Assembly: GCA_029210815.1 (NCBI GenBank)
Contig: JARGGB010000024.1
Coordinates: forward strand, 1-41,321
Length of the DNA stretch: 41,321 bases
DNA from: Candidatus Brevefilum sp.
GTDB lineage: Bacteria > Chloroflexota > Anaerolineae > Anaerolineales > Anaerolineaceae
Direction of reading: 5' to 3'
Under the pieces are notes generated by a model. The model was not told the DNA's origin and ran no database searches. It saw only the letters and a list, made by a program, of their open reading frames with translations. Shown here piece by piece: positions 4,901 to 33,865 of this stretch; positions within the stretch are counted from its first letter, which is position 1; every line of letters begins with the position of its first letter. A program made the translations under genes and the position numbers.

Positions 4901-5323
4901 ATAAGCCAGTACCCCATCACCCATCACCTGAACGATCATTCCTCCTAATTTGTGAATGGGTTCAAGAAGGCATGGATAAGCATCACGCATAATATCTGCC
5001 AGGTTTTCCGGATCAATCGTCTCTGAGATGGTTGAATAACCGGCAATGTCCGCAAATAATATTGTGACGTTTCGCCGCTCATAAGGATCGATGTGATTCA
5101 TAAAGGAATCGGTAAATGGAACGGATTGTGGTTTATCTTTTTTAGGGCTTAATAAGTCAGTACCCAGTTGAGCAGGCAAACGAACACCGCATTGAGAACA
5201 AAAAGCTGCTCCAGCCTGTGTGCTGGCGCCGCATTCAGGACAGATTACTTTGATTTGCACACCGCAATTGGGGCAAAAGATTGCCCTATCAGAAATCTCA
5301 TAACCGCATTCAGGACATTGCAT
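1940..5323 (-). CDS. Zinc-ribbon / class III nucleotidyl cyclase / AAA ATPase / TPR regulator
   Basis: A very large multidomain signalling protein. Two CxxC-N-CxxC zinc ribbons (about residues 4-22 and 29-47) precede a class III adenylate/guanylate cyclase domain (about 85-265). Both metal-binding Asp are present: FADIAGYS (Asp93) and GDGVLAYFG (Asp137). The substrate-side motif is DYIAMGDAVNLASRL. A P-loop ATPase follows, with Walker A GDPGIGKT (317-324) and Walker B LLIILED. The C-terminal 400 residues are helical TPR-like repeats. The Lys often found before the second metal Asp is Gln here (VQVMGDG), as I recall for other cyclase-ATPase-TPR proteins, so it does not by itself mean loss of activity. 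A GTG one codon upstream is an alternative start. It probably makes a cyclic nucleotide in response to a partner bound by the TPRs; the signal is unknown. Confidence 0.9.
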   Translation of the reverse strand: MQCPECGYEISDRAIFCPNCGVQIKVICPECGASTQAGAAFCSQCGVRLPAQLGTDLLSPKKDKPQSVPFTDSFMNHIDPYERRNVTILFADIAGYSTISETIDPENLADIMRDAYPCLLEPIHKLGGMIVQVMGDGVLAYFGAPSALEDDPERAVLAGLEIVARVQTYAKKLQLAQILDGFHVRVGINTGLVVIGEMNPEKHLDYIAMGDAVNLASRLQQNAPEDGVLISHSTYQHVRGLFDVQQQAPLIVKGREGIEKTYLVERRRPDHLRIQKRGLDGVATTMIGREPEMAALKNIYQDAIQGGETSLILISGDPGIGKTRLVNEFAAWARSQNMSPILLRGRAITGTQDVPYGVLRYLFARSFGILETDTSAQALEKFRRGTENFIDTEQADLLGQLVGFDFKVSPYTRQVAELYLKSYMRSLAEKSLLIILEDLQWVDDQTLDFISELLLEYGGISDRKMMILCTARTQFFEARPKWGEGILGFRDLRLRRLSSLQSRSLIDEILFGAEDIPEAFYQCVIDEAGGNPFFIEEMIKMFFDEEVITTKDASLLIELERLKDLHVPSTLKGILQARLDSLPLAEKEVLQRAAIIGRTFWDGLLLALVEDKMEIEKINSMLEALRERGLIYHRERSSLAGHQEYLFKHALLRDEAYETVLIKNRCRFHKQVAKWIEENSGDRLEEHLALIANHYLEAGQKDLAADWFIKAGERALKVCSVQEATLLFEKALNLISDQDLIRLWQATLGHDEAVGTLGELDARHADDVSLLNIAKLLEDDGRLAEAYYRIGSQAYREGNNREAARTLDHALEVAIRTKDLMLQAQILPLKISILSEEGDLKAAGSLVEHSMALARQTGDADVLARALNNLAPYYQAIGDISKSVQFYQEQIEINRQQGNHLGETYGLLNLGYSYLSFGHFELGRKLLERALKIAQRLGSKTCEAYSLLNLGLAEWRLGRSEEAIEVLESSRDFLVALEDQRGLAYRQFYIGLSFEAAEDLSEAVNHFTSAINSFKNIGVTSGIVETQAGLARLAIQAGDISRAEQLALQVIHYLSQEGPQGLELPILAYLSCIKVFDALGDRDTVQQVLKQGLKEIEDQIAMIQDEDWKVAYRDNIPENRALIAFDR

Positions 5324-5648
5324 CACAGGACCTGATTTCGTATCTATTCGATTTGGATTTTTAACCTTCTGTAAATATTAAAAGTGCCCACAAGCTAAAG
5401 CAGAAGAGAAAAAATCCAGTAAGATAACTTAAGAACGACAACTTTTTAAGGTTGTATTGAAATTTATGTAAGAGACACAAACTCAAAATGCCTGAAAACA
5501 CATAATTTAACTTCATCCATTGGGTGAGGAAAAAACTTCAAAGATGGGAAGCAACAGAAGTTACCTTAAGTATATAAAAAAATACGAACATTTTCAAATT
5601 TTTATTCGATAGGCGATCAATGATGCATCCCCCCAAAAAACCTTAGAT

Positions 5649-10717: not shown

Positions 10718-10990
10718 TTAGCGAATGGGGAACCCACGAAACATATTCCGCAATCCCTGTCCAATCCCGGACAAGCCTGCCAGCATCCCTTTTAACATGT
10801 TTTCAAACCCAACTGCGACACCCTCAAAATACTGAACCGTCTCTTCCCAGGCATTGGAAAGTGCAGGTAAAACGCCCTCTAAAAAATCCCCCAGCCCTGA
10901 TTCAAGCTCTGAAAGAGAACAGGCAGATAGCAAAAAGGTACAAGCAAAAAACAAAATAGCAAGGTAGGGCTGAACTTTCTTCCCAATCAT
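10718..10990 (-). CDS. Small predicted lipoprotein, 90 aa
   Basis: I do not recognise a family. The N-terminus MIGKKVQPYLAILFFACTF runs into a lipobox LLSAC, so it should be exported and lipid-anchored. The mature part (about 65 residues) is helical and amphipathic, with regular glycines and hydrophobics (GMLAGLSGIGQGLRNMF) and no cysteine. The ATG is chosen because GGAGG lies 5 nt before it; a GTG 18 nt further upstream would place the ribosome binding site inside the gene. It lies 70 bp downstream of the alpha-galactosidase gene on the same strand. An AT-rich stretch (about 11024-11045) between them could hold its own promoter. Confidence 0.65.
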   Translation of the reverse strand: MIGKKVQPYLAILFFACTFLLSACSLSELESGLGDFLEGVLPALSNAWEETVQYFEGVAVGFENMLKGMLAGLSGIGQGLRNMFRGFPIR

Positions 10991-11060
10991 TTTTCCTCCA
11001 CAACTCACCTTGATCGCTATTTATATTATATATTAATTTTTGAAAAAATTCTACTTGATT

Positions 11061-12950
11061 TTACGCCAAAATCCTGAACCAGCGACTTTCATGTGGATCA
11101 AGGTGCAATTCAAAATTTTCCTGCAGGAGCTTTAACTTTTCATTTGTATCTACACACATCAAGGTTAGGTCCTGATTTAATCCCAGATTTTTCAGCGGAA
11201 TTAATCGATTCAATTGAGTTTCTGCCCCATTCAAGAAGAATAGGTGCTCGATATCACCTGATTTTTCTTCCTGACGTATCTGAACGATCAAAAGGTCGTG
11301 AGGATCACCAAGGTTTATAAAGCAGCCGGGTTTCTCATCGAGGGATGCCAAATACTTAAAGCGTTCCAGGAGTTGTGATGAAACATCCGGCAAATAATCA
11401 CTGGTCATCAATGTGCCGCCTGTCAAGCCGGCAAGTGTCAGCAGTGCATTAATTTCAATTTCACTAAAATTGTGAAACTCATTTCTCAGCAAAACGCAAT
11501 CCGGGTCGGTTTGGTAAAGGACGCCATTGATAAAATTTCGATTAGGGATTGAAACAAGGGGTGATTTTGGCGTCTCAGCTGAGACCCAATCCACACCCAT
11601 ATCATTCCCGATTCTAACACTGTCAAATATCCCGACTCCTGCCCACAAAGGAACACCGCAGCCTGCCAGAAAGGCTGAACCAACTGCATCGCGGATAAGC
11701 TCACACCCTCTGCGCCAATATTCGATTCGTGTCAAACCCGCTTGATGGTGAGTTACCTTATCAGGACCATTATCGGCGACAAGATACAAAAAATCGGTTT
11801 TGAAATAGTCCACTCCCCATTCATCATGCCAGGTTTTTAACACATGTTGCAAATACTGGGCTGCGGGCGGATAGGTGATATCCAGGAGATAATATTCCTC
11901 ACTTCGTTTATGCCACCTGAATTCACCATAGAATTTCATGCAGGCAAAGGGTCTTCCAGTTTCTGCTTCTTTGACGACCCAATCAGGATGCTGTTTAAAC
12001 AGCTTGCTCCGATTGCCCACTAAAAAAGGTGCAATCCACAGCCCCGGTGTCAAACCAGCTTCTCGAACAGCCTGGACGATGGGCTGCACCCCGTTTGGAA
12101 ATTGTGGTTCACATTCCAACCAGTCCCCCATTTCAGGTGTGAATCCATCATCAATCAGAAAAACATCAAAATCAATCCTTTCTCTTTCCCTGACCTTTAT
12201 CACGCCTGAAAGATTTTCCAGGATGTTTTCTTCTGTTATGGAAGCATAAAGGTTATACCAGGAACACCAACCAATCATGCGCTTGCGTGGAATCCTGGGG
12301 GGGGTTGATGCATTTTCAGCAACCATTTCCGCCCACTGCCTCAGTCCCGATTCAACATCTTCTGTTTCAAAAAACCTGATTTTTTCTGAGGATAAGGTTG
12401 TGTTCCTGGATAACTTTCTGTCCCAACAGCTCACTACCTCAAGAGCCCGATTCCCTTCTTCATTCTTGTGGACAAAATACTGCTGATACCTGTCATGACG
12501 ATCAAAGCCCAATGTCAGGATGTGTTGGCGTCCCTTGGAAATTAACTGGGTCATACCATAGGATTGATAATGCCTGTCCTCCCCAAGTGAGTCATCATCC
12601 ATATAAACACTGCCATCCCAACTGTGATATCCATTAGAAAGAAAAGTGCTCACCCCCACAACATTTTCAAAACCAAGCCCAAAATTATTAATCACACTGG
12701 GATTTGAGCAGCCTTCCAGGTGAAATTGGACCAGCAATTCACCATTAAGATAGGAAATTGAAACCAAAAAAGCATTCACTTCGTCATTTTGAAGCTTATA
12801 ACACAATTCAAATCCGTTCAAATCATTTCGCTTGATGATCGGTGTTGTGCCCCGGTAAGAAACATCATTGATTACCGGATATAAACCGGAAAATTTTATA
12901 AATCCGAAGTCCAAATTGAACAAATTGTCAGAAATATCGATCTTCATCAT
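11061..12950 (-). CDS. Glycoside hydrolase family 36-type alpha-galactosidase
   Basis: A retaining alpha-galactosidase-like enzyme of about 630 aa. An N-terminal beta-sandwich domain (to about 220) precedes a TIM barrel. Readable landmarks, numbered from the ATG, are WCSWYN (about 228), FLIDDGF (about 264-270), GLWIAPFLVG, the nucleophile region YFKTDF (Asp about 386) and the proposed acid/base region RIGNDMG (Asp about 450). There is no signal peptide, so it should act on imported sugar in the cytoplasm. It is the last gene of the LacI-controlled glycoside operon. A TTG 21 nt upstream is an alternative start; neither start has a strong ribosome binding site. Some GH36 members act on other alpha-glycosides, so galactose specificity is not certain. 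Confidence 0.85.
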   Translation of the reverse strand: MMKIDISDNLFNLDFGFIKFSGLYPVINDVSYRGTTPIIKRNDLNGFELCYKLQNDEVNAFLVSISYLNGELLVQFHLEGCSNPSVINNFGLGFENVVGVSTFLSNGYHSWDGSVYMDDDSLGEDRHYQSYGMTQLISKGRQHILTLGFDRHDRYQQYFVHKNEEGNRALEVVSCWDRKLSRNTTLSSEKIRFFETEDVESGLRQWAEMVAENASTPPRIPRKRMIGWCSWYNLYASITEENILENLSGVIKVRERERIDFDVFLIDDGFTPEMGDWLECEPQFPNGVQPIVQAVREAGLTPGLWIAPFLVGNRSKLFKQHPDWVVKEAETGRPFACMKFYGEFRWHKRSEEYYLLDITYPPAAQYLQHVLKTWHDEWGVDYFKTDFLYLVADNGPDKVTHHQAGLTRIEYWRRGCELIRDAVGSAFLAGCGVPLWAGVGIFDSVRIGNDMGVDWVSAETPKSPLVSIPNRNFINGVLYQTDPDCVLLRNEFHNFSEIEINALLTLAGLTGGTLMTSDYLPDVSSQLLERFKYLASLDEKPGCFINLGDPHDLLIVQIRQEEKSGDIEHLFFLNGAETQLNRLIPLKNLGLNQDLTLMCVDTNEKLKLLQENFELHLDPHESRWFRILA

Positions 12951-12997
12951 AAATTGAATTGCCTGATTCAAAAATTGAAAGGGAGCGGCCGTAAAAG

Positions 12998-14008
12998 TTA
13001 ATGACTTGACTTTAGCAAGATTTCCTGTCGGGTTTCAGCGGATTTGTTTGCTGCTAATACCATATCCAGGGAAAGCGCCCCTTCCCTGATCGGGGTTCGG
13101 GTTTGAGAGCCCGTGTTTATCGCTTTTATCAGATCCTGCATTTCAGATAAGTGAATATTCCGGTCTTCTTTGATCATTTCAGTGTCTATTGGATCTTGAT
13201 CAGTAAAGAATAAATTAGCCTCGTTTGCACCAAAAAATTCCACCGTGAGCTTTTCAGCCACCAACCGGTAATCATTGATCCAGCGACCTGGTATCGCGCC
13301 ATTCGTCGCATAAATCACGCCCAGCGCGCCTTTTGGGAAGGAGTAAATCGTTGCGCTTACATCCTCATTGGTGTATCCCGGAACCTCGGTGTGAAACAAA
13401 TTCTCCTGTCGGCTGAAAACGCTCAGGGGTTCACCCATGATATACCGCATTAGGTCAACCATATGAATGACTTGCTCAACCAGCTGCCCCCCGGATTTTT
13501 CTTTATCTCGCCACCAATCAGCGTGTAAAGCATTGCAAAAATACCGTGCACTCATCAAACCCGGACGCCCTGCTGAATTCTCGTCGATTAAAGACTTTAC
13601 CCGCTCGACCGCTTTACCAAACCGGAACATAAAGCCAACCTGTGACTTTATGCCGGCTGATTCAACAGCTTCAACCATACGCCACGCATGCGCCGAGCTA
13701 AGCGCAATTGGTTTTTCAACGAACAAATGAATCCCTTTGGATGCAGCTAACGCCACTTCATCCTTGTGGGCAAACGGCGGCAGTGTGATGACCAAAAGGT
13801 CTAAGGCTGCATTATCAATTAAATCTCGATAATCCTGATAAATTTGCGCCTTCCCCTGTGTATATTGATCTCGAAAGTTAATTGCATTGTCGACATAATA
13901 GTCACAAAAGGCTGTCAATGATACCTCTGAATCCAGACTCAGCAGGTTCTCTGCATGCCGATGAGCAAATTGACCGCAGCCGAGGATTGCCGTGCGTAGT
14001 TTAGCCAT
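12998..14008 (-). CDS. Gfo/Idh/MocA-family NAD(P)-dependent oxidoreductase
   Basis: A 336-aa sugar dehydrogenase-like protein. The N-terminal Rossmann motif is ILGCGQFAHRH (8-18), and EKPIAL (98-103) carries the catalytic Lys of this family. The C-terminal half is the usual beta-sheet substrate domain with the GGQLVEQVIHMVDLMRYIMG segment, where the His contacts substrate in relatives. The ATG at 14008 is preferred because GAGG sits 7 nt upstream. An earlier in-frame ATG at 14020 would overlap the MDR gene and hide that site. In E. coli, the family member YcjS in a similar cluster oxidises glucosides at C3, so a glycoside 3-dehydrogenase role is a good hypothesis. Confidence 0.9.
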   Translation of the reverse strand: MAKLRTAILGCGQFAHRHAENLLSLDSEVSLTAFCDYYVDNAINFRDQYTQGKAQIYQDYRDLIDNAALDLLVITLPPFAHKDEVALAASKGIHLFVEKPIALSSAHAWRMVEAVESAGIKSQVGFMFRFGKAVERVKSLIDENSAGRPGLMSARYFCNALHADWWRDKEKSGGQLVEQVIHMVDLMRYIMGEPLSVFSRQENLFHTEVPGYTNEDVSATIYSFPKGALGVIYATNGAIPGRWINDYRLVAEKLTVEFFGANEANLFFTDQDPIDTEMIKEDRNIHLSEMQDLIKAINTGSQTRTPIREGALSLDMVLAANKSAETRQEILLKSSH

Positions 14009-14009
14009 C

Positions 14010-15068
14010 TTAAGCCTCATTAAGAAAATCTAATACCACCAGTAAAGCCTCTTCAGGCTTCTCATCAAGAAGCTTGTATGCTTCTTCTGCCCTATCAAAT
14101 GGGACTTTGTGGGTGATCAGGTGTCCAAGGTCTATTGCGCCGTTTTCTTGTAGATCCAAAATCGTCCGAATCAATCGAATTCGATCCCATCGGGATGACA
14201 ATTCTGGCGCAATACCCCCAATTTGTGAACAAATCAATTGAATGCGATTGTGATGAAATTCATCCCCCAGGTAGAGCGTTTCTGCACCGCCTTGAATAAA
14301 GCCAAGCACCACAACCCGTGAAGAATACGCCGCAGAGCGAATGGCTTCATGCAGCGCAGTTGTCGACCCTGATGCTTCAATCACAACATCAGCACCGCGA
14401 TTGGCTGTAAGGTCCTTAATGATTTCAGCGGGGCTGCCTTCTTTGGGGTTAATCGCAAAATCAACAGCCTCATTTTGTTTTGCAAGGTTTAATCGCTTAT
14501 CATAAAGATCCACGCCAATTACACGGGCACCTGAGAGCTTTGCAAGGCGCGCTGCGATCTGTCCGACTACGCCCAATCCAAAAATCACTACATTTTCACC
14601 AATATGAATATTGGCATCCAGAACCCCATTCAAAGCAATGGGACCGATATGTGTAAATATTCCCAAAATTGGATCTAAATTTTTTGGAATCAGACGATCA
14701 CTTGCGATCACCTCTGTTTCAATATGCCAGCTTTTATGTCCCCAGGTTCCGCCAACAATATCACCTGATTTTACACGGCTTACATCCTTCCCAATCTCAA
14801 GAATTTCGCCCACTTCTTCGTATCCCCACCCAACAAGTGGATACGCCATACTGGGTTTGACGCCTGGCAGAAAAAGCTTTCGAGTCGGATCCCATTCCTT
14901 TTGTGTATAAACATTCGTTCCACGGTAAGCGGTCATCTCGGTTCCAGCGCTGATACCCGAATACAAAGTCCTGATCCTAACTTCGTTCGGCTGTAGATCT
15001 TGATTTTCTAGTGGAAGAAAAGAGATTTTACCAGGTTCGGTGATAACAAGTACACTGTCTGCGTTCAT
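14010..15068 (-). CDS. Medium-chain (zinc-type) dehydrogenase lacking canonical zinc ligands
   Basis: A 352-aa MDR-superfamily dehydrogenase with an N-terminal GroES-like domain and an NAD(P)-binding motif GLGVVG (164-169). It most resembles the YcjQ-like or threonine-dehydrogenase-like group. The site that normally reads G-x-C-G-T-D reads GISAGTE (38-44), and the normal GHE reads GYE (82-84). The usual catalytic-zinc Cys and His are therefore both replaced, and the four-Cys structural zinc lobe is not seen. AGAGGG lies 5 nt before the ATG. It follows the phosphorylase gene by 8 bp and precedes the Gfo/Idh gene by 1 bp. It probably oxidises or reduces a sugar or keto-sugar in the same pathway. 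Confidence 0.88.
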   Translation of the reverse strand: MNADSVLVITEPGKISFLPLENQDLQPNEVRIRTLYSGISAGTEMTAYRGTNVYTQKEWDPTRKLFLPGVKPSMAYPLVGWGYEEVGEILEIGKDVSRVKSGDIVGGTWGHKSWHIETEVIASDRLIPKNLDPILGIFTHIGPIALNGVLDANIHIGENVVIFGLGVVGQIAARLAKLSGARVIGVDLYDKRLNLAKQNEAVDFAINPKEGSPAEIIKDLTANRGADVVIEASGSTTALHEAIRSAAYSSRVVVLGFIQGGAETLYLGDEFHHNRIQLICSQIGGIAPELSSRWDRIRLIRTILDLQENGAIDLGHLITHKVPFDRAEEAYKLLDEKPEEALLVVLDFLNEA

Positions 15069-15076
15069 GGTTCCCT

Positions 15077-16840
15077 CTATAAATTTTGATTCTTAAGCCA
15101 CATAGATTGATATGGCTTTAACTTGAGCTGTAATACTTGATGGTCGAAATAATAGTATTCTTTGTTGATCAAATCAACAAGCGCTTGCGCTCCTTGCAGG
15201 CAGGTTTTTTCCATATCAATCGTTAAATCAACTAAGTCCGAACTGATATTAACAAGGATTAAAATAGAACTCGAATTATCAGGTGCACATCTTTCAAGGG
15301 CAAAAACGCGATCATCAAACCTGGAAACCTTTTGCGTCGCTTTCGGATCAAAGGCTGGCTGATCAACTCTTACGGAAAGCAAATGGCGGTATTGGTTGAA
15401 TATTTGATGATGAATATTATCCGGATCTTCAAGTAAAGCTTTTAAAGCATCAAATTCAAATTTCTCTCGATTAATCGATCGTGCTCGACCTGTTTTTTTA
15501 ACTTTTTCAATTGCGTTCCTTGACCCAAACAGGCTGTGATAATAAATTCCGGGGACACCAGACAAAGAGAGTAATATCACCTGTGATGCCAAATAGCGAT
15601 CAATATCAACATTGAGGTCAGGTGTTTCAGGATCATTCAACGCGTCATACAAAGTTGTGTTCAGTTCATAGACGGTTTCTGAACCATCCGGGTTTGAACG
15701 ATGCGATAATAATCCGCCGTGATTGTGAACCTGGTCAATTACCCGCTGAAGTTCTTCTTCACTGAGAATCCCTTTTGCTGGAAGCACACCGATACCATCA
15801 TGAGAGGCAATAAAATTAAAGAATACACCTTTTGACTCCAGGCTGTTCACCCATTCTGACAGATGCTTTGCACTGCCCGAAATCAGAGTGTGCAAAACAA
15901 GCGGTGCTAATGGAAATTGATATACCATATGAGCTTCATCTGTGTGCCCGGTCTCAGGATCAAATTCGCCAAAATAACTGATGTTTTCCAAATGTGGGAC
16001 GTTGGTTTCGGTTATTAAAACCACTTCTGGGTCAGCTTCTTCTAAAATAAGGCGGAGAAGCTTAATCACCCGATGGGTTTCAGTAAGGTGGATACAGGTA
16101 GTGCCCGATTCCTTCCACAAGTAAGCAATGGCATCCAGGCGGATGATGGACGCCCCCTGTCGCAGGTAGAACAAGAGAATGTCAATAATTTCAATCAGAA
16201 CATCCGGATTTGCAAAATTTAAATCAATCTGGTCAGCACTGAAGGTTGTCCAAACTTTAACTGGACCTGAAGCCGTCTCAACCTCGGTTAATAAAGGTGA
16301 TGTTCTGGGCCTGACCACTTTTGACAAATCCCAATTTTCGTCAGGATGGATAAAATAATCCTGGTATTTTGGGTCGCCTTGTAAAAAACCCTGAAACCAG
16401 CGGCTCTCTCGAGATATATGGTTGATCACCATGTCAACCATGATTTTTTTTGTTTTTGCCAATGCCCTGAAATCTTCCCATGTGCCCAGTTTCGGGTCAA
16501 TTTTTCGGTAGTCGATCACCGAAAAACCATCATCAGAGGAATAGGGAAAAAATGGCAAGATATGAACCGAATTAATTTTGTCCCCAATAAAATCATCTAA
16601 AAAATTCTTCAGATTTTGCAAACCTGGATAGTCTGGTGCCTGGATGATGTCCCCATAAGTGATTAATATGCTGTCCTTTTCATTAAATTTTTGAGTTTGA
16701 TCCTCATTTTCAGAAGCAACTGGCAAATTGTGATGCGCTTCCAGCAAAAAGAGGACTCTCTCAGTTAAATTTTGTGCCCGCTCTTCTCCGTAAAGGAATG
16801 CCAATTGTTCATGGAGTTTCTTTTTTATTGAGTTATCCAT
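15077..16840 (-). CDS. GH13 subfamily 18 sugar phosphorylase, glucosylglycerate-phosphorylase-like
   Basis: A 587-aa sucrose-phosphorylase-family enzyme that should split an alpha-glucoside with phosphate to alpha-glucose 1-phosphate. The nucleophile is Asp236 in IIRLDAIAYLWKE, the acid/base Glu278 in LITETN, and the transition-state Asp348 in ASHDGIG. The segment after the nucleophile (LWKESGTTCIHLTETH) resembles what I recall of the glucosylglycerate/glucosylglycerol phosphorylase group (E. coli YcjM and relatives) more than bifidobacterial sucrose phosphorylase. The extra 60 residues at the N-terminus also fit the longer group. There is no signal peptide. AAAGG lies 8 nt before the ATG. 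Sucrose 6-phosphate phosphorylase is the main alternative. Confidence 0.87.
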   Translation of the reverse strand: MDNSIKKKLHEQLAFLYGEERAQNLTERVLFLLEAHHNLPVASENEDQTQKFNEKDSILITYGDIIQAPDYPGLQNLKNFLDDFIGDKINSVHILPFFPYSSDDGFSVIDYRKIDPKLGTWEDFRALAKTKKIMVDMVINHISRESRWFQGFLQGDPKYQDYFIHPDENWDLSKVVRPRTSPLLTEVETASGPVKVWTTFSADQIDLNFANPDVLIEIIDILLFYLRQGASIIRLDAIAYLWKESGTTCIHLTETHRVIKLLRLILEEADPEVVLITETNVPHLENISYFGEFDPETGHTDEAHMVYQFPLAPLVLHTLISGSAKHLSEWVNSLESKGVFFNFIASHDGIGVLPAKGILSEEELQRVIDQVHNHGGLLSHRSNPDGSETVYELNTTLYDALNDPETPDLNVDIDRYLASQVILLSLSGVPGIYYHSLFGSRNAIEKVKKTGRARSINREKFEFDALKALLEDPDNIHHQIFNQYRHLLSVRVDQPAFDPKATQKVSRFDDRVFALERCAPDNSSSILILVNISSDLVDLTIDMEKTCLQGAQALVDLINKEYYYFDHQVLQLKLKPYQSMWLKNQNL

Positions 16841-16860
16841 AATCCAACCTTTGTTAAATT

Positions 16861-18222
16861 TTAAAGCAATTCATTCAGTTGACTTTCTAAGACTTTATAT
16901 GAATAATGGCTTTCCGCAATATTGAAATTCTTGTTGACCATCTCTTCCCTGGCAGAACGACTTGTTAGATAGGTCACAAAATGATCTGCGGCTTGCTGAA
17001 TGATCGCATCTGGTACCTGAACAAGATCCCGTTGATCTCGTCCGGTGATTTGAGACCCAAGTGAAATGACATCAAAACCTCTATCCTTTATGTCCTGTAA
17101 ATATACCGGATATTCAAACATAAGGATTGGCAGCTTCGCCCTGAAGGCTTCGAGCAATTGATTCCCCCAACCTTCCCATAAACTGGGATAAGTTACAAAG
17201 TCAGCGACGGCGTAGGTATCCCATAAAGCATATGTTTTGCTGCCGGCATCTGTGCAGCGTTCCGGTCCAATTATGGAATCAATGTGCCGAAGATCAACCC
17301 CCAAATCTTTCGCTTTTGTTTTAAGCTTTTGAAGATAAACACCCGTAGGATCATCGCGGTCATAACCAGCCAGAACAAGCACAATTTTATTTTTCTCGTT
17401 GAAAGCACGCCCATCATAAAGACCACGCGCTTGTAAGATCGCGCGTCTACCCGGTTCGTTCAGGGCTTTAACCGCATCTATCGCCAGCTCAATCCCTTTG
17501 CGTGGGATAATCCGGGTTGCTTGGAGCACACAAATGTCCCCAGCATCCAAACCAATTGCCTGGCGCAAATCCTGATTATAGTCATCAACAACCCAGTCTG
17601 GACCATCAAAATCGAACACATTAGGAATAATTTTTGATGATAATCCCTTAAATTTTTCCAAACTCAATTGGGCAATGCTGTTGATGACAATATGATCAAT
17701 GTTTGGATCTTTTGGCGGCAGAAAGCCTTCATGAATATTATTTATTTCTGGGGAGCCAAGCTTCGGGTTTAATTTCCTCTCCCAGTAAAAATCATGATGA
17801 TGGGCTATTGCCCTGATGCCCAGCGCTTGTCTGACTTTTTCCAAAGCGACAGCAGCTGGAATATTCATCGCCACACTCCAAATATTGTTCACCAGTAAGA
17901 TATCTATCTCATCACTAATGATGATATCCCTGAGGGCATTCTCCAAAATACCAGTTTGATCATTAATACGTTTTTGCAGAGCATCGGATGTCAAATCATC
18001 TCGCTGCCCCAGGATGTTTTGATTAACTAGTTCAATTTCAGGTCGATGATGGTATAACTCGGGCAGCAAAATGCCATCCTGGTTTCCCAAACGTCCTGCA
18101 CACAATAAAACCCGATGCCCCATCTTTTCAAGAACGGTCTTCCACTTATCAACCTCCAGCGAAACACCGTCTGTAAGTCCAAGTTGGTAATGAAAAATGC
18201 CTATTGTTTTTGATGATTTCAT
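16861..18222 (-). CDS. GT4-family retaining glycosyltransferase
   Basis: A 453-aa GT-B glycosyltransferase of family 4. The donor-binding Arg237 and Lys242 lie in ATRIIPRKG, and the E-x7-E motif is Glu350-Glu358 in EGWGNQLLE. There are no membrane segments, so it works on a soluble acceptor in the cytoplasm. It lies 20 bp before the phosphorylase gene and 133 bp after the second permease gene. A transferase in an import and breakdown operon is unusual. It could build a compatible solute such as a mannosyl- or glucosyl-glucosylglycerate, or act with the phosphorylase on a shared intermediate (inference). AGAGG lies 9 nt before the ATG. Acceptor and donor cannot be read from sequence. Confidence 0.85.
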   Translation of the reverse strand: MKSSKTIGIFHYQLGLTDGVSLEVDKWKTVLEKMGHRVLLCAGRLGNQDGILLPELYHHRPEIELVNQNILGQRDDLTSDALQKRINDQTGILENALRDIIISDEIDILLVNNIWSVAMNIPAAVALEKVRQALGIRAIAHHHDFYWERKLNPKLGSPEINNIHEGFLPPKDPNIDHIVINSIAQLSLEKFKGLSSKIIPNVFDFDGPDWVVDDYNQDLRQAIGLDAGDICVLQATRIIPRKGIELAIDAVKALNEPGRRAILQARGLYDGRAFNEKNKIVLVLAGYDRDDPTGVYLQKLKTKAKDLGVDLRHIDSIIGPERCTDAGSKTYALWDTYAVADFVTYPSLWEGWGNQLLEAFRAKLPILMFEYPVYLQDIKDRGFDVISLGSQITGRDQRDLVQVPDAIIQQAADHFVTYLTSRSAREEMVNKNFNIAESHYSYKVLESQLNELL

Positions 18223-18355
18223 TGATGTTTACCTCTGGCAATTGTCAACATTTAATTGTACACCTGTGATGTTATTCCTTAAAATAGCCCGCGTGTTCAC
18301 AGAATGTGAAATATTACTGTTCAATTGAGGTAAATCTAATAACCCTGCCGATTGA

Positions 18356-19255
18356 TTAACCTTTAACACCACCGGCTGTCAAACCTTCAGCCAGATACTT
18401 CTCCAAAGATAAGAAAAGTATGATGATTGGCACGGTCATGATTGTAGAGGCTGCCATCACAACATTGGGGCGTGGGGTGGGGTCATTGAATATCGTGTTA
18501 ATTTTTATCGGCATTGTGAACATGTGACGATCATTTAAGAAAATCAATGCGTACAAAAATTCATTCCAGGCAATCATAAAGGTGTAAATCCCCACCGATA
18601 TCAAAGCAGGAATAGATAGTGGCAGTGTCACCCGCCAGATCACTTCCAAACGACTGCATCCGTCAATCAAAGCTGCTTGCTCAATTTCATCTGGAATAGT
18701 TCGGAAATAATTGGTCAACATATACAGGGCAACAGGTAATGTCTGCGACATATATGTAAAGACTAAGACTCCCAAATTATCCTGTACGTTAAACCCCAAT
18801 TGATCGCCAATTTGGGCAAGCATGGCAAATAGGGGAATTATCAACAGCACACCAGGGAATAAATACACCAGCAAAATACCATTGAGAAGAATATTCTTGC
18901 CTTTAAACCGAAACCTGGCGATGGCGTAAGATCCCAGAACTGCTAAAATTACAGCGATGATCGCCGTGGGGATAGAGACCTTCAAGGTGTTGACGATATT
19001 CCTGCCAAAATCCTGGTAACTTGGATGATTAGGGTCAAATAGCTCTCGATAGGCATCCAAACGCAATCCGCTGGGGACATAAACAGGCTCACGCCCACCA
19101 ATCTCTGCCTTTGTTTTGAAGGATGAACTTACCATCCAATAAAATGGGAAGATGATACTGGTTAAAAAGAAAATCAAGACCACGGAAAATAAGAAGCGTT
19201 TCCAGTTGATCCAATCCGCAAGGTGGCCAATTAAATTCTTCTTTTCGTTTTTCAT
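18356..19255 (-). CDS. Carbohydrate ABC transporter permease, MalG/UgpE-type
   Basis: A 299-aa inner-membrane protein with about six membrane segments. The EAA loop near residue 190 reads EQAALIDGCSRLEVIWRVTLP, which contacts the ATPase. The N-terminus FPFYWMVSSSFKTKAEI is typical of the MalG-type subunit of CUT1 sugar importers. GGAGG lies 7 nt before the ATG, and the upstream permease gene ends 2 bp earlier. It forms the channel with the MalF-type partner. No ATP-binding subunit gene lies in this operon, so a shared MsmK/UgpC-type ATPase encoded elsewhere is expected. Confidence 0.93.
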   Translation of the reverse strand: MKNEKKNLIGHLADWINWKRFLFSVVLIFFLTSIIFPFYWMVSSSFKTKAEIGGREPVYVPSGLRLDAYRELFDPNHPSYQDFGRNIVNTLKVSIPTAIIAVILAVLGSYAIARFRFKGKNILLNGILLVYLFPGVLLIIPLFAMLAQIGDQLGFNVQDNLGVLVFTYMSQTLPVALYMLTNYFRTIPDEIEQAALIDGCSRLEVIWRVTLPLSIPALISVGIYTFMIAWNEFLYALIFLNDRHMFTMPIKINTIFNDPTPRPNVVMAASTIMTVPIIILFLSLEKYLAEGLTAGGVKG

Positions 19256-19257
19256 GG

Positions 19258-20196
19258 CTAATCCTCCACATTCTTCATGACGACAGTCACATAAAGCGTC
19301 ATGAACAAGGCTAAAATCAACAACAAAATCATCGCAGTAGCAGCACCACGACCGAAATCATACAACCTGAAGCTGAATTCGTAAGTCAGCACTGGCAGTA
19401 CCTTTGTCCCAAAACCGCCGCCAGTGTACAGGAAAATGTCGTCGAATTTATTAAATGTCCACATCAAGCGCAGTAAGAACGTTGCACCCAGCACATAACG
19501 CAGTTCAGGTATTGTAATAAAGAAAAATTGCTGGACCACATTCGCGCCGTCAACTTTTGCTGCCTCATAAAGGGTACCGTCAATTGCCTGTAGCCGAGCT
19601 AAAATCATCAACATACAAAATGGGAAATATCGCCATGCGTCCAACAAAATCACAATGATCAGTGAAAGGCCTCGGGATGCTAAATAAGCTTTTGGCAGCT
19701 CAATCAGGTTTAAACTCATCAAAATATCGTTGACAACACCTGAAGGCCTGGGATCCAAGATCCACCGCCAAACAAAGGCTATGCTAACAATCGGCGCCAC
19801 ATAAGGGAATAAGAAAATCGCCCTGGCAACCCCACGCCCTTTGAAAGGGCGATTCAAGAGTAAAGATGCTGCCAAACCCACCAGAACAGCAAGGCTTGTG
19901 GAAGCAAAAGAATAAATTATCGTTGTAACAGCCGCACCCCAATTTTGCAGACCTTGAAATTTAAATGCGTAATCATCAATGACCTTTTTATAGTTATCAA
20001 AACCAATAAAAGGCGCATGGAAAACATCATTTAAATTATCCAGACCAACATCGTGAAAACTAACCCAAACGCTGAAAATTGCAGGAAATATCACAAGCCC
20101 AAAAACGATGAGTGCAGTTGGTGAAATCAATGTCCAGGCTAAGCGGGCTTCCTGCGTTTTCCGGCTTTTTACTTTTTTCGTACCAGCAATAGACAT
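19258..20196 (-). CDS. Carbohydrate ABC transporter permease, MalF/UgpA-type
   Basis: A 312-aa inner-membrane protein with about six membrane segments. The EAA loop reads YEAAKVDGANVVQQFFFITIP, and the N-terminal LAWTLISPTALIVFGLVIFPAIFSVWVSF is typical of MalF-type subunits of CUT1 sugar importers. The start at 20196 is chosen because GGAAGGAG lies 6 nt upstream; an in-frame ATG 15 nt earlier would put that site inside the gene. The gene follows a strong hairpin after the binding-protein gene. It pairs with the MalG-type permease 2 bp downstream. Confidence 0.93.
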   Translation of the reverse strand: MSIAGTKKVKSRKTQEARLAWTLISPTALIVFGLVIFPAIFSVWVSFHDVGLDNLNDVFHAPFIGFDNYKKVIDDYAFKFQGLQNWGAAVTTIIYSFASTSLAVLVGLAASLLLNRPFKGRGVARAIFLFPYVAPIVSIAFVWRWILDPRPSGVVNDILMSLNLIELPKAYLASRGLSLIIVILLDAWRYFPFCMLMILARLQAIDGTLYEAAKVDGANVVQQFFFITIPELRYVLGATFLLRLMWTFNKFDDIFLYTGGGFGTKVLPVLTYEFSFRLYDFGRGAATAMILLLILALFMTLYVTVVMKNVED

Positions 20197-20217
20197 GATG
20201 ACTCCTTCCAAAAATGT

Positions 20218-20247
20218 GCAAGGGTGTGGTTTTCACCACACCCTTGC
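20218..20247 (-). promoter_or_regulatory. Intercistronic hairpin between sugar-binding protein and permease genes
   Basis: A perfect 12-bp stem with a 6-nt loop (arms GCAAGGGTGTGG and CCACACCCTTGC). It lies 13 nt after the stop codon of the binding protein and 21 nt before the permease ATG. On the minus strand a T5 tract follows after 4 nt. It likely stabilises the upstream mRNA segment or terminates part of the transcripts, giving an excess of binding protein. Confidence 0.8.
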
Positions 20248-20260
20248 TGTGTCTTATGAA

Positions 20261-21697
20261 CTACTCGCTTCGTTCTGCATATAGCGCTTCGACTTGCCCC
20301 TGCAGCCATTCAGCTGCAATTTCTGGAGTCATCGTTCCCTCAAGAACAATGTAGCTGATTGCTTGCGGAATGAACAAACGACCTTCGATATCGCCAACAA
20401 CAGCACGTTCTACGCTGCCATAATCCGGTCGGAAGAGCCAGCGCTGCATGGTCTCATAACCATTGGCAACTTGAGCGATCGTATCTTCACTGTAATACTC
20501 GAAGTATTCACTCAGACCGCGCCAGCCATCAACGGCACTCTTCAAAACAGGAACCTTACCCATGGGTGCTAATGCAAGGATATCCAGGTAATTCTGTCCG
20601 GTCATAAAGAATTTCACAACTTCCTGCGCCATTGGGTCAGCGCCCTGAAGAATACCCAAAGCAACTAACTGTCCATATGATGCAGATCCATTGGATCCTT
20701 CCATCATCGGTGCAAATCCAGAGTTGGCAGCCAGGTTTTCAACGACTTCAATATTTCCGCCCTCTTCTGTGCCCGAACCTTCCACGAGGTCATCCATGAT
20801 GTAAGTGCTGTAGAACATCATGCCAGATTGTCCAAGCTCGTAGGATTCCCGGGCACCACGCCAGTATTGCGGACCAGGCATCGCACAACTCTGCAAGCCT
20901 GCATACCATTCAAGTGCTTCGATCATCTCAGGGGTATTCATCGTCACATTGCCAGCCGCATCAAAAGGCCAGGCGTCATTGGAAATTGCCACCTGTTCGA
21001 ATACCTGGTGTGGATAGTTTTGTCCAGGATCTGTTGCTAGTGTCAGCGCGTAAATCAAGTCCCCGGTTCCAGGAAGAGCGTCGCAGGCAGCATCGATATC
21101 ATCCCATGAGATGGGAGCGGCTAAACCAAGCTCGTTGAAAACATCCTCACGGTACCATAACGCCTGGACCCAACCATCAAAAGGTACACCTGCATATTTA
21201 CCTGTTTCCGGGTCTGTGACCATCGCTAAGGGGCCAGCTTGGAAATCGTCTACACCAATGCTTTCAACCGTCGCCGTTGCAGCATCAAGATCGAGGATGC
21301 CATCAGCAGTAAAAGAGGAAATCCGTTCAACGCCCATGCGGATAATATCGGGCAAACGATTGGCTGCCTGGGCAGTAGCAATTCGTTGTGCAATCCCTGC
21401 TTCTTCAATCGGGACGATGCGAAGGTCAATATCCGGGTACTCTTCCATGAAAGCAGCTGCAACCTTTTCATAGGCTAAAACTCGGTCTTCTTCGTTATCT
21501 GTTGTCCAGAATTCGATAACCGTTTTCTCACCAGGTTCCACAGGAACCTCTCTAATCACTTCCTGTGTCTCAATAACAGTTTCCACCACCGTTCGTTCAA
21601 CGGGTACTTCCACTGTTTCTACAACAGTTCTTGTACAGGCGCTGAGAACCCCACTTAAAAGTATGGTTACCAGCATTAAAATCGAGAACTTCTTCAT
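20261..21697 (-). CDS. Extracellular sugar-binding lipoprotein of the ABC importer
   Basis: A 478-aa family 1 solute-binding protein. A signal peptide ends in lipobox LSAC (Cys near 21). A low-complexity Val/Glu/Thr linker follows to about residue 56, with repeats such as VVETVEV and VVETVIE; similar linkers are common in Chloroflexota binding proteins. The binding fold begins at IEFWTTDNEED. There are two Cys in the mature domain (DAACDAL and LQSCAMPG), possibly one disulfide. AAAGGAG lies 8 nt before the ATG. It is the second gene of the LacI-led operon. The ligand is unknown; the downstream phosphorylase suggests a small alpha-glucoside. Confidence 0.92.
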   Translation of the reverse strand: MKKFSILMLVTILLSGVLSACTRTVVETVEVPVERTVVETVIETQEVIREVPVEPGEKTVIEFWTTDNEEDRVLAYEKVAAAFMEEYPDIDLRIVPIEEAGIAQRIATAQAANRLPDIIRMGVERISSFTADGILDLDAATATVESIGVDDFQAGPLAMVTDPETGKYAGVPFDGWVQALWYREDVFNELGLAAPISWDDIDAACDALPGTGDLIYALTLATDPGQNYPHQVFEQVAISNDAWPFDAAGNVTMNTPEMIEALEWYAGLQSCAMPGPQYWRGARESYELGQSGMMFYSTYIMDDLVEGSGTEEGGNIEVVENLAANSGFAPMMEGSNGSASYGQLVALGILQGADPMAQEVVKFFMTGQNYLDILALAPMGKVPVLKSAVDGWRGLSEYFEYYSEDTIAQVANGYETMQRWLFRPDYGSVERAVVGDIEGRLFIPQAISYIVLEGTMTPEIAAEWLQGQVEALYAERSE

Positions 21698-21777
21698 TTT
21701 TCAAACTCCTTTCAAATTTTTAGATTTACAATGTTGGAAAACAAGCAATGTGAATTTTTTCGGTAAAACCTCCTTGC

Positions 21778-22806
21778 CTAAATAGCCCTTTTATCATAAA
21801 TGCCAGTAGACTGTCTTTCAATCAGACTGGGTTTCAACAAAATCTGCTGATGTTCGCTTAATTCGTCTCTAATGATTTTTACAAGCATTTCACAGACCAT
21901 GCTGCCAATTTGATAGACCGGCTGATGAACGGTCGTGAGGGGTGGATGGGAATATTCTGACATGGGGATATCATCGAATCCTGTTACGGAAACATCCTTC
22001 CCAACAACCAGCCCGCGCTCCTGTACTGCGCTCATAACTCCAAAAGCCATCAGGTCATTACAAGCCACAATAGCTGTTGGCGTCTCAGACAAATCGAGAA
22101 GTTCAGCGCCTAATTCATATCCGCTTCTTTGGGTCAAATCGCCTGCTTTGATGTAAGCTGGATCAAGTTTGATGTTGTACTTTTCCAGGCCATCACGTAA
22201 TCCTGCTATACGTTTTTCTGTAAATGCAAGATCGGGTTTTGGTGTTATACATCCAATAACATCATGGTTTAATCCGACTAAATGTTCAGCAACCAGCTGC
22301 ATGCCATAATATCCATCTTCATCAACATAAGAGAAACGGTTGCAATCATCCGTTCTGCCAAAAGCAACAAATGGGAAATTCTTTGATAATAAGTACTCTA
22401 TTCGAGTATCCTGGTTTCGCGTGCGCACCACAATGAAACCATCAACCCGTCCTCCTTCAACCATTTTTTCATAGGCTTTGTTCTCTTCAAACCCGGGCGA
22501 ACGCGTTGAAACAAGCAAATCAAAACCTAAATCTGCAGCCTTATTGCCAATGCCCGCCAGGAGTTCACTGAAGTAAGGATCTGAAAAACGTGGGCTAAAA
22601 GTTGGAAGAATTAGTCCAATCGTATCTGATTGTTGTTTTTGTAATCGTTGTGCAAATGTGTTGGGGGAATAACCCATTTCTTTGGCTGTTTTGAGAATGA
22701 GCTGCTTTGTTTCAGGGCTGACATCATCATAGTCATTAAGAGCCCTTGATACCGTGGTGATAGAGCGATTGACTCTTTTTGCAATATCTTTAATGCTTAC
22801 ACTCAT
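21778..22806 (-). CDS. LacI-family transcriptional repressor
   Basis: A 342-aa regulator. The N-terminal helix-turn-helix and hinge read SIKDIAKRVNRSITTVSRALND and YSPNTFAQRLQ, followed by a type I periplasmic-binding-protein-like sensor domain (SDTIGLILPTF onward). It opens the glycoside operon and should respond to the imported sugar or a breakdown product. Two operator-like sites of the LacI/CcpA type, with a central CG, overlap its own promoter, so autoregulation is very likely. GGAG lies 8 nt before the ATG. The gap to the binding-protein gene is 80 bp and contains an unused-looking AAGGAGG just after the stop codon. Confidence 0.93.
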   Translation of the reverse strand: MSVSIKDIAKRVNRSITTVSRALNDYDDVSPETKQLILKTAKEMGYSPNTFAQRLQKQQSDTIGLILPTFSPRFSDPYFSELLAGIGNKAADLGFDLLVSTRSPGFEENKAYEKMVEGGRVDGFIVVRTRNQDTRIEYLLSKNFPFVAFGRTDDCNRFSYVDEDGYYGMQLVAEHLVGLNHDVIGCITPKPDLAFTEKRIAGLRDGLEKYNIKLDPAYIKAGDLTQRSGYELGAELLDLSETPTAIVACNDLMAFGVMSAVQERGLVVGKDVSVTGFDDIPMSEYSHPPLTTVHQPVYQIGSMVCEMLVKIIRDELSEHQQILLKPSLIERQSTGIYDKRAI

Positions 22807-22822
22807 ATTGCTGCTCCACTAT

Positions 22823-22836
22823 CCAAAACGTTTCGG
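22823..22836. promoter_or_regulatory. LacI-type operator O1 (CCAAAACGTTTCGG)
   Basis: A near-palindrome differing from the perfect O2 at one position. It sits just downstream of the predicted transcription start. Its centre is 31 bp from the O2 centre, close to three helical turns, which places both on the same face of the DNA. Confidence 0.75.
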
Positions 22837-22845
22837 GTTAAATCC

Positions 22846-22874
22846 AGTATATACCAAAACGTTTTGGATGTCAA
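22846..22874 (-). promoter_or_regulatory. Sigma70 promoter of the glycoside operon
   Basis: On the minus strand, TTGACA (22869-22874) and TATACT (22846-22851) are separated by exactly 17 bp. The spacer contains the perfect operator O2. The predicted start is near 22839. Confidence 0.85.
22854..22867. promoter_or_regulatory. LacI-type operator O2 (CCAAAACGTTTTGG)
   Basis: A perfect 14-bp palindrome with the central CG typical of LacI-family sites, lying wholly inside the -35/-10 spacer. A bound repressor would block RNA polymerase directly. Confidence 0.85.
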
Positions 22875-29684: not shown

Positions 29685-30450
29685 GGTCCACAACTCCCAG
29701 GTAGGCTTCGATCACGCGATCATCATTCTGGATTTGTTCGGGGTTGCCTTCTGCAATTTTCTCACCATGGTCAATTACAATGATTCGAGGGCAAATACCC
29801 ATCACAACCCGCATTTGATGTTCAATCAGGAATATTGTTAAATTAAAGGAATCCAGAATATGTTGAATGAAAGCCATCAATTCCTCTGCATCCGAAGGGC
29901 TCATCCCTGCAGCAGGTTCGTCAAGCAAAAGCAAACGGGGTTCTGTCGCTAAAGCTCGGGCAATCTCCAATTTCCGCTGCAAACCATAAGGCAAAGATGT
30001 CGGCTCATCTTCAGCAAAGCGATCCAGACCCAGGGACTCTAAAAGTGTCATCCCCGAACTGCGCATTTTGCTTTCCTCTTTCAAATAATTTGGCAAATGC
30101 AAAATAGCAGATGCGGGATCAGACGCCAGTCGTAAGTGTTTCCCAACAATTACATTTTCAAGAACGTTTAATCCCTTAAATAAGCGAATGTTTTGAAATG
30201 TGCGAGCAATCCCTTTTTTGGTGATCTGGTCCGGTCGCTTGCCAGAAATATCCTCACCCTGGAAAATAATATTGCCTTCTGTCGGCTCATAGATGCCGGT
30301 AATGACATTGAAAATGGTTGTTTTACCCGAACCATTCGGTCCGATCAATGCACATAATTCTCCTTCCACCAGTTGGGTGGAAAAATGATTGACAGCTGTC
30401 AAACCACCAAATCGTTTTGTTAAATCTTTAACTTCCAGTAAGGTGGTCAT
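29677..30450 (-). CDS. livG: Branched-chain amino acid ABC transporter ATP-binding protein LivG
   Basis: A 257-aa ATPase. Walker A is GPNGSGKT, followed by the LivG-specific RTFQNIRLF segment and LPYGLQRKLEIARAL in place of the canonical LSGGQ signature, as is usual for LivG. Walker B is LLLLDEPAAGMSP and the switch region LIEHQMRVVM. Its ATG overlaps the livM stop by 4 nt, with GGAGG upstream. It forms a heterodimer with LivF on the LivH/LivM channel. Confidence 0.94.
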   Translation of the reverse strand: MTTLLEVKDLTKRFGGLTAVNHFSTQLVEGELCALIGPNGSGKTTIFNVITGIYEPTEGNIIFQGEDISGKRPDQITKKGIARTFQNIRLFKGLNVLENVIVGKHLRLASDPASAILHLPNYLKEESKMRSSGMTLLESLGLDRFAEDEPTSLPYGLQRKLEIARALATEPRLLLLDEPAAGMSPSDAEELMAFIQHILDSFNLTIFLIEHQMRVVMGICPRIIVIDHGEKIAEGNPEQIQNDDRVIEAYLGVVDHA

Positions 30451-31520: not shown

Positions 31521-31524
31521 CGTC

Positions 31525-32418: not shown

Positions 32419-32453
32419 AGGATTTATCCAATCGATAAGATTCAAAACATCCA

Positions 32454-32489: not shown

Positions 32490-32505
32490 ATCCAATTGAT
32501 TAAGT

Positions 32506-33825: not shown

Positions 33826-33865
33826 TAATTTCTTGTTCGTTTTTAAGTCAAACCTTTATAATAAC

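Follow-up and report, generated by a model that had tools for sequence, protein, structure and literature searches.

Gene content and switch region

We analyzed a 41,321-nucleotide stretch of DNA from Candidatus Brevefilum sp. (Chloroflexota; Anaerolineae; contig JARGGB010000024.1 of assembly GCA_029210815.1), below called the window, which is an entire contig of a 2.66-Mb assembly that is 96% complete. Our subject is a set of nine open reading frames (ORFs) that lie on its minus strand between positions 11061 and 22806 and encode, from the first gene to the last, a LacI-family regulator, a sugar-binding lipoprotein (SBP_bac_1), two permeases (BPD_transp_1), a GT4 glycosyltransferase (Glycos_transf_1), a GH13 enzyme (Alpha-amylase), an MDR dehydrogenase (ADH_zinc_N), a Gfo/Idh/MocA oxidoreductase (GFO_IDH_MocA), and a GH36 enzyme (Melibiase). 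Along the operon from 5' to 3', the intergenic gaps measure 80, 49, 2, 133, 20, and 8 bp, the MDR and Gfo/Idh genes overlap by 11 bp, and a gap of 26 bp precedes the GH36 gene. These short gaps and the overlap make the arrangement operon-like, and the nine genes look like a single LacI-autoregulated operon. ORF coordinates and profiles agree in this with an initial annotation, made from the letters alone, which had listed nine closely spaced genes of these families on one strand and likened them to the ycj cluster of Escherichia coli. On our best reading, what is observed here (the genes present, the sites of the switch, the types of enzyme at motif level, and the conserved association) makes up a new variant of the ycj-like cluster with a testable substrate class, for which we infer the substrate, the order of the reactions, the direction of GT4, and the roles of the dehydrogenases.

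Upstream of the LacI gene, the minus strand carries in turn TTGACA, a palindrome (TCCAAAACGTTTTGGT) within a 17-bp spacer, TATACT, a second palindrome (CCCGAAACGTTTTGGA), and the LacI start, with the two palindromes, 31 bp apart, flanking the -10 element of the promoter-like site (Table 1). This site agrees with the consensus at 11 of 12 positions and ranks first among 27 such sites nearby, and, as shuffled sequences lead one to expect 26.4, it counts as a consensus match only. Matches to the operator pattern with up to three mismatches number two in the window against 0.32 expected (2 of 100 shuffles give two). Of 16 related LacI genes, the present one counted in, nine have similar sites in their upstream stretches (four of the 16 stretches are shorter than 400 bases), and in eight of these nine the sites form a pair spaced 31 to 32 bp apart, against 0.4% for shuffled upstream regions. 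The sites support a local autoregulated switch, at which the LacI protein is predicted to bind. A strong hairpin between the lipoprotein gene and the first permease gene is a candidate 3' stabilizer or attenuator.

Table 1. Positions in the window of the nine genes and of the features around them
Feature	Position	Strand	Basis or remark
Sigma-70-like promoter	22846-22874	-	TTGACA, 17-bp spacer, TATACT; consensus match only
LacI operator O1 (putative)	22853-22868		TCCAAAACGTTTTGGT on minus strand; within promoter spacer
LacI operator O2 (putative)	22822-22837		31 bp from O1; directly downstream of -10
LacI-family regulator, first gene of operon	21778-22806	-	Family profile
Sugar-binding lipoprotein, YcjN-like	20261-21697	-	SBP_bac_1; lipobox seen in sequence
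Hairpin between lipoprotein and first permease genes	20218-20247	-	13 pairs, 8 G-C
MalF-type (CUT1) permease	19258-20211	-	Profiles; TTG start as listed
MalG-type (CUT1) permease	18356-19255	-	Profiles
GT4, mannosylglucosylglycerate-synthase family	16861-18222	-	NF041101; R237, K242, EX7E (E350/E358) intact
GH13_18 glucosylglycerate-phosphorylase (GGaP)-type enzyme	15077-16840	-	D236, E278 (in TETN), D348, loop-A E392
MDR dehydrogenase, sister clade of YcjQ	14010-15068	-	Without Tdh zinc Cys and without zinc lobe
Gfo/Idh/MocA oxidoreductase	12998-14020	-	EKP motif; clade apart from YcjS
GH36, Thermotoga-type alpha-galactosidase-like	11061-12971	-	D393, D457 in KxD, RIGxD motifs; TTG start as listed
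96-aa lipoprotein-like ORF	10718-11008	Same as GH36	Downstream of GH36

The phosphorylase and the ycj cluster

Glucosylglycerate phosphorylases (GGaPs) are marked, according to a review (PMC7178133), by a (T/S)ETN motif at the acid/base residue and by a loop-A Glu. Both are present in the GH13_18 protein of the window, where E278 lies within TETN and E392 within VYELN, aligned to YEIN of E. coli YcjM, to which the protein is 38% identical across 585 alignment positions. Among 63 related GH13_18 proteins of the loci compared here (denoted by L numbers), (T/S)ETN is found in 62, the exception being a 412-aa fragment, and the loop-A pattern in 60 (not in L046, L075, and L098). In a tree of 41 such proteins, a branch with a support of 100 separates three plasmid-encoded gtfA sucrose phosphorylases, a small outgroup of long branches named by annotation, from the other 38, which include YcjM and the window enzyme. 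Judged by motifs and tree, the enzyme is of the glucosylglycerate-phosphorylase type rather than a sucrose phosphorylase, and the grouping with sucrose phosphorylases that would have refuted the initial annotation did not appear; with GH13_18 GGaPs (EC 2.4.1.352) it shares TETN, the loop-A Glu, the catalytic triad residues, and the tree position, and sequence comparison finds no difference.

Operons of the msm type combine a regulator, a binding protein, two permeases, a GH36 alpha-galactosidase, and a sucrose phosphorylase. Such msm/raffinose operons with gtfA have outwardly the same kinds of genes as the window, and the top NCBIfam name for its GH13_18 protein is TIGR03852 (sucrose_gtfA). 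That the cluster is nonetheless an ordinary msm-type operon for sucrose or raffinose-family sugars appears highly improbable: the TIGR03852 match reaches 227 bits against a cut-off of 334, the GGaP motifs replace the sucrose-phosphorylase loop-A motif, the branch just described sets the enzyme apart from the three gtfA proteins, and such an operon has no place for GT4, MDR, and Gfo/Idh proteins. It is the motifs and the tree of the phosphorylase by which we ruled out a sucrose/raffinose operon.

With the E. coli ycj cluster (ycjM to ycjW), the window has in common a LacI regulator and, found together with it, homologs of YcjM, of YcjN (PDB 8vqk, the second-best PDB match of the lipoprotein; E = 1.7e-37), and of YcjO and YcjP (32% identity for the MalF-type and 40% for the MalG-type permease, respectively), as well as a YcjQ-related MDR (32%). 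It differs in the missing YcjR and GH65 kojibiose phosphorylase (YcjT), neither of which has a tblastn match in the window at an E of 0.01, in the missing beta-phosphoglucomutase match, in the Gfo/Idh protein of another clade, in the additional GT4 and GH36, and in the LacI gene standing first in the operon. According to the E. coli annotation, YcjQ is a D-guloside 3-dehydrogenase, YcjR a 3-dehydro-D-guloside 4-epimerase, YcjS a D-glucoside 3-dehydrogenase, and YcjT a kojibiose phosphorylase.

The likeness to ycj proposed at the outset is borne out by the YcjN-like lipoprotein and by the MDR, but the proposal that both ycj dehydrogenases are kept finds support for the MDR, in a clade next to that of YcjQ, and none for the Gfo/Idh protein. 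YcjQ and the window MDR are each other's best matches among the proteins tested (YcjQ against the window's own genome gives 150 bits for this MDR and 37 for the next gene; the MDR against five E. coli MDRs gives 141 bits for YcjQ and 72 for the next). MDRs encoded in a block with Gfo/Idh and GH36 make up a single ten-member clade (support 98), to which the MDR of the Halanaerobium locus L099 belongs; YcjQ is in a separate neighboring clade with seven members, and the window MDR is thereby placed as sister to YcjQ. In a Gfo/Idh tree with several long branches, the block members belong to an 18-member clade (support 96) shared with Gfo/Idh proteins from GH36-less places, whereas YcjS belongs to a separate clade (support 99). 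A stretch around YFCNxLHxxWWR...SGGQ is common to the block members, including that of L099, and absent from YcjS. When YcjS is compared with the own genome, the window Gfo/Idh ranks third by bits as the sole full-length match (two others score slightly higher over shorter lengths). By tree position it is no YcjS ortholog.

YcjR is present in three of the loci compared (L048, L176, and L098). One of them, L098, from a Bacilli metagenome-assembled genome, has GGaP, a glycerate kinase, GT4, GH4, and homologs of ycjQ, ycjR, ycjS, and ycjT in one locus and forms a natural bridge between window-type and ycj-type clusters. The idea in the initial annotation that GT4 stands in for YcjR or GH65 was abandoned, since homologs of both coexist with GT4 in L098. 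Another is L176, on a plasmid of Enterobacter hormaechei (NZ_AP025884.1), where psp genes are found together with a ycj-like cluster, from the binding-protein gene to pgmB, beside a quinolone-resistance gene, which indicates that the E. coli-type cluster moves on an IncHI2A plasmid.

Conservation of the cluster, GT4, and the dehydrogenase-GH36 block

A search with the GH13_18 protein in 61 genomes (the own genome and 60 relatives) gave matches in 60, much of it other GH13 proteins, and close matches (at least 44% identity; E of 1e-127 or better) in 27, the own genome included. Leaving out G053, we compared 26 places from the remaining 25 close-match relatives, labeling neighbors by BLAST against a small reference set with a greedy choice of ORFs, a procedure by which genes can be missed. 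Six of the 26 loci (L022, L023, L026, L029, L034, and L035) show LacI-lipoprotein-permease-permease-(GT4)-GGaP in collinear order, and a seventh (L038) has LacI-lipoprotein-permease-permease-GGaP with GT4 on the opposite strand; several of the other relatives' loci end at contig edges, and the GH13_18 gene of one genome (G042) contains a stop. In L035, LacI, the importer, GT4, GGaP, and a MOFRL glycerate kinase follow in series, with MDR, Gfo/Idh, and GH36 divergent. A locus of Halanaerobium congolense keeps most of the gene order, MDR and Gfo/Idh included, the order in L099 being LacI-lipoprotein-MalF-MalG-GT4-GGaP-MDR-Gfo/Idh-(distant Melibiase). The genes are kept together in related genomes, the outcome on which the initial annotation had staked its proposal, and the gene set is beyond chance co-occurrence.

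Loci of another type (L028, L031, L040, L043, and L045) have a Usp-GT2 gene (GpgS-like), and several add a His-phosphatase, an MGH1-like gene (mannosylglycerate hydrolase family), and a further GT4, as in a putative cluster for glucosylglycerate synthesis and turnover. Four of these (L028, L031, L043, and L045) and L120 to L122 are Chloroflexota clusters with Usp-GT2 and two kinds of GT4, many also with a His-phosphatase and GGaP, a composition that hints at glycosylated glucosylglycerates being made and turned over.

The GT4 protein matches NF041101, the model for mannosylglucosylglycerate synthase (MggS), near full length at 382 bits (E = 2.7e-114; the curated cut-off of 640 is not reached). 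The same model is the best for 18 of 20 further GT4 proteins, at 230 to 427 bits, with another GT4 model outscoring it for L031:3122-4348 and L036:7247-8482. R237, K242, E350, and E358 are invariant across a 68-sequence alignment that includes the window protein; we take them to be the phosphate-binding R/K and the EX7E residues of an intact GT4 site. Its AlphaFold model (pLDDT 95.4) has a GT-B fold, and the best PDB matches of the model include BshA, HepE, PimA, and TreT (Z of 24 to 30), while a single-sequence search for a PDB relative gave none at an E of 0.001. The protein thus resembles MggS, whose reference enzyme is presumably that of Petrotoga, in profile match, fold, and intact site, and differs from it in score and in that its relatives often lie beside importer, GGaP, and glycerate kinase genes. 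This assignment to the MggS family by profile, which the initial annotation did not have, says more about the class of substrate than any other observation.

To survey GT4 neighborhoods, we used named genome contigs with the best 80 of at least 571 relatives, ranked by similarity to the window GT4 and hence not a random sample; they span Chloroflexota, Halanaerobia, Paenibacillus, Vibrio, Spirochaetota, Atribacterota, and Planctomycetota. The GT4 proteins of L037 and L061 are identical. Full context, meaning 6 kb or more on either side of GT4, is available for 31 of the 80 loci. Within six genes of GT4, GGaP is present in 21 of these 31, accompanied by importer genes in 17, a MalG-type permease in 20, LacI in 12, and a GlxK-type glycerate kinase in 9. 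Further neighbors among the 80 loci are GH130 (8), GH38 (6), a 2-hydroxyacid dehydrogenase (5), and phosphomannose isomerase (4). The functional link between GT4 and GGaP is strong, and it leaves the direction of GT4 undecided. We found no description of this pairing in the titles and abstract openings of the literature on mannosylglucosylglycerate and glucosylglycerate phosphorylase, and a search for glucosylglycerate in Anaerolineae gave no paper.

Phosphomannomutase adjoins GT4 in three Vibrio loci and lies seven to eight genes off in two more, and E. coli ManC (mannose-1-phosphate guanylyltransferase) has no match among the ORFs retained from the loci; as a guide to the direction of GT4, these neighbors were dropped as too narrow. 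In the Vibrio loci with GT4 and phosphomannomutase (L084, L089, L090, L097, and L102), four have a ROK regulator and a 529-aa-type protein, of which L089:10065-11654 has no Pfam match at an E of 1e-8.

In a FastTree phylogeny of GT4, the window clade (n = 72) has importer and GGaP genes nearby in 26 rows, an importer in 16, GGaP in 6, and none of these in 24, with many of the loci ending at contig edges. Its sister clade (n = 24) has GGaP and GpgS/GpgP-like genes in 10, importer and GGaP in 6, none in 4, GpgS in 2, GGaP in 1, and an importer in 1. A clean division of the tree into synthesis and breakdown was rejected in view of the mixed neighborhoods within the window clade. A GT2/GT81-like gene, which may encode a GpgS, is present in five of its loci (L058, L059, L109, L110, and L111), and a branch of ten rows, mostly Planctomycetota and Verrucomicrobiota, has no GGaP nearby, so that the window clade is not purely catabolic.

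These loci, together with the NF041101 match and the intact site, fit an alternative in which the cluster builds an osmolyte: GT4 would be an MggS that transfers mannose from GDP-mannose onto glucosylglycerate that is imported or made by GGaP, and GGaP would balance the pool. In the same direction point the sister-clade clusters, with their GpgS- and GpgP-like, Usp-GT2, His-phosphatase, and, in some, MGH1-like genes, and, for the GGaP-free branch, the accumulation of mannosylglucosylglycerate reported for a planctomycete (PMC3694870). However, the transferase part of the one GpgS-like query used is unmatched in the own genome, the search for ManC was negative as mentioned, and catabolism is what the LacI switch, the importer, and the glycerate kinases suggest. 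We regard osmolyte building as possible though rather unlikely. The own genome encodes, elsewhere, a MalK-like ATPase, a candidate for the importer, and a glycerate-2-kinase-type (DUF4147/MOFRL) protein, which, with the unmatched GpgS transferase, is consistent with the use of an imported solute.

The genes at the end of the operon have a distribution of their own. The window Gfo/Idh, searched against 298 genomes of the class (E of 1e-70), identified 16 places in 14 genomes, its own included. MDR, Gfo/Idh, and GH36 are contiguous in 6 of the 15 other places (L148, L150, L152, L153, L154, and L156), with GGaP after GH36 in four of them (L150, L153, L154, and L156), and L159 has Gfo/Idh and GH36 with no MDR called. 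Some of the GH36-less places end at contig edges, L152 ends within GH36, and the GH36 of L154 appears as two ORFs. With L023 and L035, the loci other than the window that have all three block genes number eight; GGaP is present in six of these, either in the same run (L023, L150, L153, L154, and L156) or in a divergent operon (L035). On the GGaP tree, with L099 counted in, the block changes five times among 32 rows (5 of 37 rows, with less than 4 kb visible on a side, were left out), suggesting that block and GGaP joined or parted several times.

The window GH36 matches the Melibiase profile at 55 bits (cut-off of 27). Its residues 209 to 529 align with 1zy9 and 5m0x, presumably both from Thermotoga maritima, at an E of about 1e-44, and D393 and D457, which we take to be the catalytic residues, align with the KxD and RIGxD motifs of 1zy9. 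This is the likeness to alpha-galactosidases of the T. maritima type; the difference is that just about half of the window protein aligns by sequence. Both Asp residues are kept in the GH36 proteins of the six relatives complete enough for this check (L023, L148, L150, L153, L156, and L159), three fragments being not judgeable. The GH36-like enzyme of Halanaerobium is distant (23% identity over 169 positions), so that the role of GH36 there may be held by another enzyme or be unfilled. A scan of the phylum at an E of 1e-60 found window-type GH36 in 3 of 400 genomes, the own one included, the other two aligning over about 310 to 320 residues; this evenly drawn sample evidently did not include the L023 and L035 genomes and thus says little about the frequency of GH36. 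A protein of the uroporphyrinogen-decarboxylase (URO-D) family, 325 to 388 aa long, lies beside or near the MDR or Gfo/Idh genes in L151, L156, and L158.

MGH1-like genes adjoin the block in L150 and L156 and the Gfo/Idh-GH36 pair in L159, and a GH38 gene is near the block in L156. Alpha-galactosyl and alpha-mannosyl osmolytes are present in algae, and the mix-and-match fashion in which the potential decapping genes (GH36, GH38, GH130, MGH1-like, GH65, and GT4) differ by locus would suit a parallel use, in which several small osmolytes of algal or bacterial origin (glucosylglycerate, galactosylglycerol or galactosylglycerate, and mannosylglycerate) enter through the importer and each has one enzyme of its own. 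Against this, GGaP has GH36 as its direct neighbor, and GT4 in its vicinity, so frequently that a shared substrate is the simpler explanation, and we consider parallel use quite unlikely.

Proposed route and its reach

We incline, with moderate confidence, to the view that the nine genes form a substrate-inducible operon for the import and stepwise dismantling of hexosyl-capped 2-O-alpha-glucosylglycerate, or related hexosyl-glycerate osmolytes, from other microbes, an assessment that draws on gene content and conservation and not on operator uniqueness. LacI would repress its own promoter through the two operators until an inducer appears. The YcjN-like lipoprotein and the two permeases would then import the glycoside, presumably powered by the MalK-type ATPase encoded elsewhere in the genome, and the cap would be removed in the cytoplasm. 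There, the MDR and Gfo/Idh proteins probably oxidize and then re-reduce C3 of the cap, which, without a YcjR-type C4 epimerase, would amount to a net inversion at C3, for example, from a guloside to a galactoside. GH36 might cut an alpha-galactosyl-type cap after this step, GT4 might act on a mannosyl cap in either direction, and GGaP would come last, converting glucosylglycerate and phosphate to glucose 1-phosphate and glycerate, as its motifs predict. The glycerate could be phosphorylated by the glycerate-2-kinase-type protein encoded elsewhere. D-Gulose is the C3 epimer of D-galactose, and ycj chemistry without the epimerase would thus yield a galactoside cleavable by GH36, which may explain why GH36 is present while YcjR and GH65 are missing. 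The galactose-type cap and the 3-keto route put forward in the initial annotation are plausible.

Besides the GT2/GT81-like genes and the GGaP-free branch of the GT4 clade, several observations weigh against such a catabolic operon. None of the 21 scanned GT4 proteins, that of the window included, reaches the MggS equivalog cut-off, and an intact GT4 site is equally compatible with synthesis and breakdown. Of the 80 loci, 2 have an MDR near GT4 and 1 has a GH36-like gene there, and the closest relative, L022, has no MDR, Gfo/Idh, or GH36, which makes the block optional; 8 of the 15 places with a close Gfo/Idh have no called GH36 (L149, L151, L155, L157, L158, L160, L161, and L162). The operon itself encodes no kinase or phosphomutase, and the serial order of the steps is a guess. 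As for the switch, 7 of the 16 LacI upstream regions have no operator, including that of L022, whose LacI is 79% identical. Genome-wide, at one mismatch or fewer, the operator pattern has two sites, both here, against four for a backwards control pattern; such counts are at chance level, so that the case for the operators rests on place and conservation, and a genome-wide regulon was rejected.

The import and dismantling of capped glucosylglycerate may be one instance of something wider. Kojibiose phosphorylase acts on alpha-1,2 links. Mannosylglucosylglycerate is described, in a title cited by PMC4555173, as alpha-mannosyl-(1->2)-alpha-glucosyl-(1->2)-glycerate, and from this linkage and the kojibiose phosphorylase YcjT it would follow that all variants leave glucosylglycerate for GGaP. 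A bolder and rather unlikely possibility is that the window GT4 clade includes mannosylglucosylglycerate phosphorylases and that operons in several phyla dismantle hexosyl-(1->2)-glucosylglycerates by interchangeable decapping modules. GT4 would serve for mannose, using phosphate to release mannose 1-phosphate and glucosylglycerate, with cleavage of the latter by GGaP; the MDR-Gfo/Idh-GH36 block would serve for a galacto or gulo cap through epimerase-free C3 inversion, YcjQRS with YcjT for a gulo or gluco cap in E. coli, and GH38, GH130, and MGH1-like enzymes elsewhere. According to a 2022 review (PMC8950772), the characterized GT4 phosphorylases are all trehalose phosphorylases, and a phosphorylase here would therefore be a new activity.

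GGaP is paired time and again with MggS-family GT4, glycerate kinases, and a changing set of decapping enzymes, which suggests that capped glucosylglycerates are the common substrate class, an idea checkable with few compounds. A ligand screen of YcjN found no ligand (PMC11543891), and the physiological substrate of ycj is unsettled; were the modular scheme true, the missing substrate class of ycj would be named, a gulosyl- or kojibiosyl-type glycerate. Capped-solute import, if true, would likewise mean a dedicated food-web route for compatible solutes, made by some microbes and imported and eaten by others.

The small lipoprotein-like ORF downstream of GH36 was discarded as a conserved part of the operon, as it has no match in any other locus compared. 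The profile scan outside the operon covered some of the window's genes only; on the minus strand, positions 30447 to 38920 hold adjacent ABC systems of the branched-chain-amino-acid type (Peripla_BP_6) and of the PnrA/Bmp type with a double ATPase. Zinc ribbons, TPR repeats, and domains of the guanylate-cyclase and AAA kinds are combined in a 1128-aa protein encoded at positions 1940 to 5326.

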